From contig JACPFL010000094.1 of NCBI GenBank assembly GCA_016183025.1, forward strand, positions 1-52,478: DNA of 52,478 nucleotides, read 5' to 3'. Shown piece by piece: positions 15,985-22,456 of the stretch. Source of the DNA: Deltaproteobacteria bacterium (GTDB lineage: Bacteria; Desulfobacterota; JACPFL01). The notes below the pieces were generated by a model that searched no databases, had not been told where the DNA came from, and saw only the letters and a list, made by a program, of their open reading frames with translations. Within the stretch, counting starts at the first letter, position 1, and every line of letters starts with the position of its first letter. The translations under genes and the position numbers were made by a program.

Positions 15985-15988
<4 letters not shown>
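15512..15988 (-). CDS. greA: Transcription elongation factor GreA
   Basis: [57 protein letters not shown]. Confidence 0.95.
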
Positions 15989-19253
<3,265 letters not shown>

Positions 19254-19257
<4 letters not shown>

Positions 19258-20423
19258 CCCCTGCCGGCCGGCCCCTCACGGCCGGGCCAGGCGCGCATGA
19301 GCGCGACAAACCGGTCGAAGAGGTACCGCGCGTCGTGCGGCCCCGGTGAGGCCTCCGGGTGGTACTGGATCGCGTAGGCCCCGAGCGCCGGGCAGGCCAG
19401 CCCCTCCAGCGTCCCGTCGTACAGGTTCCGGTGCGTCGCCTCGACCCCCACGGGGAGCGACTCGCCGTCCACCGCGAACCCATGGTTCTGGCAGGTGATC
19501 TCGATCCGCCCGGTGGCCACGTCGAGCACCGGGTGGTTGGCCCCGTGGTGGCCGAACTTCAGCTTGTAGGTCCGCGCCCCCAGCGCGAGCCCCAGGAGCT
19601 GATGCCCCAGGCAGATCCCCAGGATCGGGCGCTGTCCCAGCAGCCGGCGCACCGCCTCGATCGCGTAGGGGACGCCCTCGGGGTCACCCGGCCCGTTCGA
19701 GAGCACAATGCCGTCCGGATCCAGAGCCAGGCAGGGCTCAGCGCCGGTCATGGCCGGCACGACCGTGACCCGGCACCCCCGGGCCACGAGCTGCCGGAGA
19801 ATGCTCCGCTTGATCCCGAAGTCGTAGGCCACCACATGCCAGGGCCGTCCCTCCGGTCCCGAGGCGCTCCCTGCCGGGCTTGGTTCCAGCGGATGCGGGG
19901 CCTCGCCCCAGGCGTACGGAGCCGGACACGTGACCTCCCCGGCGAGGTCGCGGCCGACCAGCCCCGGCGCGGCCCGGGCCCGCGCGACCAGACGCTCCCG
20001 GTCGCGCTCCACGGTCGAGAGCACGGCCTGCTGGGCCCCGAGGGTCCGGATGCGGCGTGTCAGGGCCCGCGTGTCCACCCCCTCGATCGCCACCATCCCC
20101 CAGCGGGTCAGAAACGCGGGCAGGCTCTCCCGGGCCCGCCAGCTGCTGGGCGCGGGGGGGAGCTCCCGGACCACCAGCCCGCAGGCGAAGGGGCGGGCCG
20201 CCTCCATGTCCTCCGGGGTGGTCCCGACGATCCCGATCTCCGGCGCGGTCATCGCGACGATCTGCCCGTGGTACGAGGGGTCGGTCAGGATCTCCTGATA
20301 GCCGGTCAGGCTGGTGTTGAAGACCAGCTCGCCCACCACCTCGCCGGGCGCGCCGCACGCGTGTCCCTCGAAGACCGCGCCGTCTGCCAGGGCCAGGAGC
20401 GCCGGCCGATCCCCCGCCCTCAT
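19254..20423 (-). CDS. carA: Carbamoyl-phosphate synthase small subunit
   Basis: [55 protein letters not shown]-like motif; ATG 20423. Confidence 0.95.
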
Positions 20424-21619
20424 CGGAACAGCTCCCCTCGGCCCCGCGTGGGCGGTCTCACCTCGACCTCGCAGTACGCGCAGCGCAGCCCCCCCGCCTC
20501 GGCGGCCGGCACGAAACGCGGGCGGACATCGGGCTCGCTCAGGCTCACGCACCGGTCGTTGATGCACCGCACCCCCCGCACCCGGACCGACCGGACGGAG
20601 AGGCGGGGCCGCGGTCCGGGGGCGAAGCCCCCGGAGCGCACCACGCCCAGGAACAGCGCCGTCAGGGCCATCCGCACGGCCACCCCGTAGGAGGCCTGGC
20701 GAAAGTATCCGGCCCGCTTGTCCTCGTCTACGTCGTAATCCAGCTCGTTCACGCGCGGGAGCGGGTGCAGCACGAGCGCGTCCTCCTGGGCCTTGCGGAG
20801 GAGGGCCCGGCTCAGCCGGAAGCTCTCGGCGGCCAGCGCCGGCCCCTCCCCCCGCGGCAGGCGTTCCTTCTGGACGCGGGTCAGGTACAGGACGTCGAAC
20901 TGCTCGATCAGGTCCTGGTAGAGGCCGTCCCCCGAGCGGCGTCGCGGGGCCGACGCCTCGCCCGCGATCGCCTCGTCGAGCCGGCTGAATTCACGGATCC
21001 GGCAGCCGTACTCGCGGAGCAGGCGCTCCCGCACGTGGGCGGGGAGCTGGAACCCGGGGGGCGCCACGCACGTGATCCGGGCGCCGAAGCGGGCCAGGCC
21101 GTACGCCAGGGAGTGGACCGTCCGGCCGTACCGGAGGTCGCCGCACAGGGCCACGTGCAGCCCCTGCACCTTGCCCTTCTCCTTCCGCATGGTGTAGAGG
21201 TCGCACAGCGTCTGGGTCGGGTGCTCGTGGGTCCCGTCCCCTCCGCTGATCACGGGGATCCGCGCGCACTCGGCCGCCACCCGCGTGGAGCCGTCCAGGT
21301 AGTGGCGCATGACCAGCAGGTCCGCGTAGTGCTGGACCACCCGGACCGAATCCCGGATGGTCTCCCCCTTCGCGGCCGAGGAGCTCACCCGGGCGTTCTC
21401 GGTTGAGAGCACCGCCCCGCCCAGGCGGTGCATGGCGCTCTCGAAGGAGAGCCGCGTCCTGGTCGAGGGCTCGTAGAACAGCGTGCAGAGGATCTTCCCC
21501 CGGCACAGGTCCAGGGGGCCGCCGCGCCGGAGCAGGCTGGCCATCTCGTCGGCCCCGACGAAGACGGCCTCCACCTCTTCGTTGGTGAGGTCGTTAATGG
21601 AGACCAGGCTCCGCCGCAC
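20420..21619 (-). CDS. pyrB: Aspartate carbamoyltransferase catalytic chain with C-terminal PyrI-like zinc domain
   Basis: [62 protein letters not shown]-terminus CINDRC...CAYC; GTG start 21619 proposed (in-frame ATG at 21688 lies upstream of the terminator). Confidence 0.92.
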
Positions 21620-21645
21620 GCCTACGCCCCGCCCCGGCCGCCGGC

Positions 21646-21678
21646 AAAAAAAAACCTCCCGCCCCGTGCCCAGGAGGT
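21646..21678 (-). terminator. Rho-independent terminator/attenuator in pyrB leader
   Basis: RNA ACCTCC...GGAGGT stem followed by a run of Us (nine As on plus strand, 21646-21654). Confidence 0.75.
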
Positions 21679-21730
21679 CCTCCGCCATCGCTCGGCCGCC
21701 TCAGGACCGATGCCCGTCGCCCCTCTGGTC
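21676..21730 (-). promoter_or_regulatory. Putative antiterminator and anti-antiterminator of pyr attenuator
   Basis: GGTCCT (21703-21708) pairs with AGGACC (21676-21681); GACC (21727-21730) pairs with GGTC (21705-21708) with a purine-rich AGAGGGGCGACGGGCATC loop. Confidence 0.55.
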
Positions 21731-21735
21731 AGCCG

Positions 21736-21764
21736 TGTATAGCACCCCCCGCCCCGGCCGTCAA
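21736..21764 (-). promoter_or_regulatory. sigma70-like promoter of pyr cluster
   Basis: Minus strand TTGACG-N17-TATACA. Confidence 0.65.
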
Positions 21765-21775
21765 CCCCGCCCCGG

Positions 21776-22456
21776 TCAGTGGATGAGGTGGGCCAGGCGC
21801 CGCCAGCGCACCACGTGATCGTTCGAGTCCCAGGACCAGTAGATGATGAAGGCCCGCCCCTTCACGGCGGAGAGCTTCACGAACCCCCAGAACCGGCTGT
21901 CATAGCTGTGGTCGCGGTTGTCCCCCATGACGAAGAGCGAGCCGGGCGGGACGACCACGGGACCGAAGTTGTCCCGCGGAGAGGCCGACCGGGGGAGCGG
22001 GGGCGAGTCGTCCTCGAACACCGCCCACGGATCCGGCACCGTCTGCCCGTTCACGAAGATCTTCTTGTTGACGACCTCGACGCGGTCGCCCTCGACGCCG
22101 ATCACGCGCTTGATGAAGTCCTTGTCCGGGTCCACCGGGTACACGAAGACGATGACGTCGCCCCGCGTGGGGTGCTCCAGGGGCAGGACCCGGAGGTCCG
22201 TGAACGGGACCTTGGTCCCGTAGGTGAACTTGTTCACGAGGATGTGGTCCCCCACCTGGAGGGTCGGCTTCATGGACCCCGAGGGGATCTTGAAGGCCTG
22301 CACCACGAAGGTCCGGATGACCAGGGCCAGGAGCAGGGCGATGACGATCGCCTCGCCGTACTCCCGGACCCAGGACTTCCGTCGCGCCTGGGCCTTCTCG
22401 GCCTCCGGCTTCTCCCGGGCCTCCTCGCGGGCGGCCTGCTGCAGCTCGGTCCCCAT
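21776..22456 (-). CDS. lepB: Signal peptidase I
   Basis: FKIPSGSMKPTLQVGDHILVNKFTYG, RGDVIVFVYP, FIKRVIGVEGD, VMGDNRDHSYDSRFWGFV. Confidence 0.95.
   Translation of the reverse strand: MGTELQQAAREEAREKPEAEKAQARRKSWVREYGEAIVIALLLALVIRTFVVQAFKIPSGSMKPTLQVGDHILVNKFTYGTKVPFTDLRVLPLEHPTRGDVIVFVYPVDPDKDFIKRVIGVEGDRVEVVNKKIFVNGQTVPDPWAVFEDDSPPLPRSASPRDNFGPVVVPPGSLFVMGDNRDHSYDSRFWGFVKLSAVKGRAFIIYWSWDSNDHVVRWRRLAHLIH

Follow-up and report, generated by a model that had tools for sequence, protein, structure and literature searches.

A probable transcription attenuator before pyrB-carA-carB whose leader is not a canonical PyrR element

Pyrimidine operons are well known to be controlled by attenuation, and one extra case is in itself ordinary. 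Attenuation of the E. coli pyrBI operon involves UTP-sensitive pausing at a U-rich pause site. Pyrimidine attenuators of the Bacillus type carry a PyrR site (RF00515). This family appears in a published list of 43 known cis-regulatory RNA families (PMC3766115), and attenuators of many phyla are still without known function (PMC2965389).

We analysed the region before pyrB in a stretch of 52,478 nucleotides, referred to as the window. The following features define the locus:

21736..21764, minus strand: sigma-70-like promoter TTGACG-N17-TATACA, unique in the window, 0 expected in shuffles
21646..21730, minus strand: predicted leader RNA, about 85 nt long with the U run at its end, from the promoter and terminator positions
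21646..21683, minus strand: intrinsic terminator, stem ACCUCC(UG)/(CG)GGAGGU followed by U9 (21654-21646), fold z -2.8, T run unique
20420..21619, minus strand: pyrB, starting with GTG, for an aspartate carbamoyltransferase that has a PyrI-type domain at its C-terminus (TIGR00670 315 bits; PF02748 29.7 bits)
19254-20420, minus strand: carA, downstream of pyrB in the same operon (TIGR01368 461 bits)
15985-19257, minus strand: carB, downstream in the pyrB operon, assigned from ORF content

On the minus strand, the end of lepB (21776) is followed by the promoter, the leader, the hairpin-U9 (21683-21646), the GTG of pyrB at 21619, carA and carB. The original prediction had described this promoter and terminator together with three mutually exclusive hairpins of a PyrR-type attenuator; its letters and coordinates are all correct on the minus strand, including an ATG at 21688 in frame with pyrB. 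The promoter consists of TTGACG (21764-21759), a 17-nt spacer and TATACA (21741-21736), and its spacing places the transcription start at about 21730. The pattern TTGAC-N18-TATAM occurs a single time in the window and in 0 of 100 shuffles. The terminator is built from ACCTCC (21678-21673), GGAGGT (21659-21654) and T9 (21654-21646), and 3 of 200 shuffles folded equally well. Its T run is the single run of eight or more T in the 52-kb window (0 in shuffles), and only four G+C-flanked T8 runs were found across the 3.68-Mb genome, one of which is the terminator of a tRNA gene. Promoter and hairpin-T9 run are far beyond chance, and both were borne out as predicted.

A stable hairpin with a U run, i.e. 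an intrinsic terminator, lies within the leader between promoter and pyrB. The gap from the U run to the GTG start codon is 26 nt, too short to hold a second promoter; pyrB is thus transcribed through the terminator, which must be either regulated or leaky. The order of promoter, ~85-nt leader, terminator, 26 nt and GTG implies attenuation of pyrB-carA-carB. A start near 21730 and a terminator that gates pyrB are strongly implied by the sequence. The terminator is probably a regulated attenuator; given a promoter and an intrinsic terminator directly upstream of pyrB, pyr attenuation of some form is likely.

The C-terminal end of PyrB (20420-21619, minus strand) is a PyrI metal-binding domain (PF02748), and the best relatives of the protein among named genome records are archaeal (Bathyarchaeota, 42-44% identity). 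PyrB is unlikely to start at ATG 21688, as the family models first match it 2-4 residues downstream of GTG 21619. A DNA search of 396 genomes of the phylum revealed no orthologous pyrB leader, only short matches, and by eye the A+T-rich region upstream of a PyrB relative with 51% identity (G003, L015) contained no comparable leader.

The alternative structures of the leader were compared with shuffled sequences. The segments of the predicted stems are GACC (21730-21727), GGTCCT (21708-21703) and AGGACC (21681-21676), and a further pairing emerged from the folding of partial transcripts:

21670..21728, minus strand: possible antiterminator, CCAGAGGGG (21728-21720) with CCUCCUGG (21677-21670), the best alternative fold in partial transcripts

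The longest complement between leader and terminator arm is the 6-bp pairing GGTCCT/AGGACC (p=0.21 in shuffles, 0.84 with G-U pairs), and four perfect 4-bp stems were counted in the leader vs 3.6 expected. Folding of the 5' leader from the likely start at 21730 gave p=0.73, no better than shuffles. The GACC/GGTC anti-antiterminator is 5 kcal/mol weaker than the best fold of the leader, and each of these two structures coexists with the terminator. The three mutually exclusive hairpins are therefore not beyond chance in such a G+C-rich leader. For the antiterminator of CCAGAGGGG with CCTCCTGG (21677-70), the energy gain did not exceed that of shuffles either (p=0.09-0.43, according to where the transcript was taken to end); this test was silent on relatives' leaders with true PyrR elements, so it counts only weakly against the antiterminator.

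A search with RF00515 gave no match at gathering across the window, nor did 21560-21860 yield one with E-values of up to 10 allowed. As a positive control, the same model matched the pyrR leaders of 10/12 relatives, 6/12 of them above gathering and 9/12 above 50 bits. From the aligned core element in the pyrR leaders of 12 relatives from the same phylum we built a second covariance model (R1), in whose alignment RNAalifold predicts two stems, 8 of their 12 pairs having changes on both sides, and which finds additional members (24/146 genomes). On the window leader, R1 reached at best 1.3 bits, at 21692-21710, elsewhere in the leader than the proposed site (E 2.1 for a search of 301 bases with the filters switched off), and it found no match across the window's genome. 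The lower stem and the upper stem with its CNGNGA hexaloop, as seen with R1 in the relatives, were not found in the window leader. The CCAGAGGGG loop leaves no room for the 5' strand of a lower stem, because this strand would fall in the -10 box. No significant similarity was seen between the leader and the PyrR leaders of relatives (in 20 tests the lowest p was 0.044). The element is present in relatives and detected there by these tests, and it is absent from the window leader; the pyrB leader is not a canonical PyrR element, and a PyrR-type attenuator as originally proposed is not supported. The word AGAGRGGCGWC, common to the pyrB and pyrK leaders, was considered as a PyrR site. AGAGRGGCGNC is rare, with 19 genomic matches. 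The pattern had been chosen after seeing both leaders and was rejected, since by a rough estimate chance alone should give two G+C-rich leaders of 100 nt a word of this kind in common.

The genome does encode one clear PyrR (G000:C25:10781-11305; NF003549 217 bits vs cut-off 138), on a contig other than that of the window. The same contig carries a pyrK-like gene and pyrD, genes of an NMT1/THI5-type ABC transporter and a hydantoinase/carbamoylase gene. PyrR is common in the phylum (118/148). We compared the presence of the element with the PyrR protein at 110 loci of relatives (same-phylum pyrR loci L080-L109 and L141-L220; relatives at phylum level, none closer), in 91 of which the motif was readable. 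All 28 loci with the element encode HRELPI-[RK]-x-D-x-x-G-[KR]-N, and the basic residue and Asn occur together in 0/63 element-less loci (Fisher p = 4e-24, relatedness not corrected for). We take the basic residue after HRELPI to be R146 of B. subtilis PyrR and the Asn to be position 153 in B. subtilis numbering; R146 is reportedly important for RNA binding. The PyrR of the window's genome reads HRELPI-A-PDFVGK-V, and A146 and V153 place it in the element-less class. A hairpin with a T run was found up to 260 nt before pyrR in 24/28 element carriers and 18/63 element-less loci, some matches among the latter being weak.

These results also bear on a strongly diverged PyrR site, at which PyrR with UMP would stabilise a 5' hairpin and so favour the terminator. 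The genome has pyrR, on a contig with pyrK-pyrD, relatives' PyrR leaders have similar GGGGAGG-T9-GCC terminators, CCAGAGGGGC resembles the PyrR loop sequence, and the alternative hairpin CAUC-GGUC-[CUGAGGC]-GGCC-GAGC-GAUG (21712-21686) has a PyrR-like outline. However, neither RF00515 nor R1 matches the leader, it shows no significant likeness to the PyrR leaders of relatives, the -10 box takes the place of a lower stem, and the genome's PyrR has A146 and V153; we regard such a site as improbable.

Three further structures were observed on the pyrR contig (L013). The leader of the pyrK-like gene (L013:3540-3625, G000 C25) forms a very long hairpin (z -4.6, 0/200 shuffles as good), which has a GAGAGAG loop and encloses a G-rich Shine-Dalgarno sequence and an ATG. 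An NMT1/THI5-type ABC transporter gene has a very short leader in which the hairpin AUGUC-[CUGAGA]-GACAU (L013:5398-5409) shows a perfect CNGNGA hexaloop (R1 6.4 bits, shuffle p 0.0014); it may be a PyrR-type site of minimal size, or it may have arisen by chance. Before the first gene of the carbamoylase-pyrR operon (L013:9370-9494), a promoter-like TTGACG-N17-TTACAT precedes a CCCUUCC/GGAAGGG hairpin with UUAUUUUUUU, apparently a second attenuator-like leader in this genome.

An attenuator under another ligand or RNA-binding protein, with a recognition mode not yet described, would accord with an attenuator layout that has no known element and with the unusual pyr-cluster leaders elsewhere in the genome (the pyrK hairpin, z -4.6). 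A conserved structure could not be shown for the leader, though, and its 5' fold is no better than shuffles, which makes such a regulator a rather remote prospect. Somewhat less improbable, but still unlikely, is a leaky constitutive terminator, which would stop transcripts reading through from lepA-lepB and let a constant, unregulated fraction of pyrB transcription pass. It is in keeping with alternative structures that are not beyond chance and with a leader at which a known sensor was not found, but most transcripts from the strong promoter ahead of the terminator would then be wasted, and comparable pyr leaders of relatives carry a regulatory element.

The original prediction had also offered a leader peptide read through the U run:

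21620..21688, minus strand: possible leader ORF from ATG 21688 (MAEDLLGTGREVFFC...), GAGG-N10-ATG, extending past the terminator into pyrB in the same frame

The Shine-Dalgarno sequence of this ATG is weak (GAGG, 10 nt from the ATG). An open frame from ATG 21688 alone was found in 76% of shuffles, and an ORF with a GAGG site that reaches the terminator in about 20%. Six U were counted by eye in the 76 nt before the U run; no U-rich pause site was found upstream of the terminator in the window leader, and UTP-sensitive pausing as in E. coli pyrBI is not evident. The ORF does fit leaders of relatives that have no PyrR element, while its chance on its own is about 0.2. In four such pyrR leaders (L169, L184, L188, L197), an ATG ORF preceded by a Shine-Dalgarno site runs through a hairpin-U9 terminator, and the frame of the window ORF through the U run is that of the ORF in L184 (MGCPVKNHHKQDLPPRGEKVFF). 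The ending REGFFLRC in one frame is common to L184, L188 and L197, which form one family. Four ORFs with Shine-Dalgarno sites enter the terminator among element-less leaders vs 2.0 expected, a small excess in a count for which the T run was mispicked in L184 and L197. A 17-codon ORF with its end within the terminator is common to two more leaders, L154 and L162. In all six the ORF reaches into a hairpin-U8/9 terminator, and leader-peptide attenuation of these pyrR operons is possible.

Our best explanation, put forward tentatively, is a transcription attenuator on pyrB-carA-carB whose read-through would be set by the translated leader ORF and not by PyrR. RNA polymerase would start near 21730 and meet a strong intrinsic terminator 45-85 nt later, and only transcripts that pass it would reach pyrB. 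A ribosome starting at ATG 21688 would follow the polymerase through the 5' arm of the terminator, a coupling as in translation-coupled attenuation of the pyrBI/pyrE type and not PyrR binding to an anti-antiterminator. Translation of the leader ORF may thus be the mechanism that sets read-through, and it leads the candidates considered. It is preferred over PyrR because no element was found in the window or its genome by models that find it in relatives, and because the genome's PyrR is without the R/K146-N153 pair of all 28 carriers. The element-less L169, L184, L188 and L197, with the same layout and their ORFs through the terminator, also argue for it; the roughly one-in-five occurrence of such an ORF in shuffles, the weak GAGG and the few U before the U run weaken it.

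Compared with the Bacillus-type PyrR attenuator (RF00515), the locus is alike in having a promoter with a short leader and a U-run terminator ahead of pyrimidine genes, in the presence of pyrR in the genome and in the use of the element within the same phylum. It differs in that the leader has no RF00515 or R1 match and no CNGNGA hexaloop hairpin with a lower stem, that the genome's PyrR is without the element-associated residues, and that pyrR lies outside the pyrB operon. With enterobacterial pyrBI and pyrE it shares a leader ORF (ATG 21688) through a terminator directly before pyrB; unlike these, it has no U-rich pause tract, its ORF is open and in frame into pyrB, and the ORF alone is not beyond chance. 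The leaders of L184, L188, L197 and L169 are similar in promoter, ATG ORF with a Shine-Dalgarno site, hairpin-U9 and a gene soon after, and their PyrR is also of the element-less class, whereas they precede pyrR and not pyrB, have better Shine-Dalgarno sites, and their ORFs stop close to the U run or to the start codon that follows. It is conceivable, if on balance doubtful, that lineages of the phylum without R/K146-N153 also lost the PyrR element, and that some, perhaps including the window's genome, use leader-peptide attenuation evolved separately from enterobacterial pyrBI. The value of the case is comparative: within one phylum, two residues of PyrR are gained or lost along with the PyrR element, operons that have no element may nonetheless have a terminator in their leader, and a switch from PyrR-RNA control to other attenuation becomes testable in this phylum.
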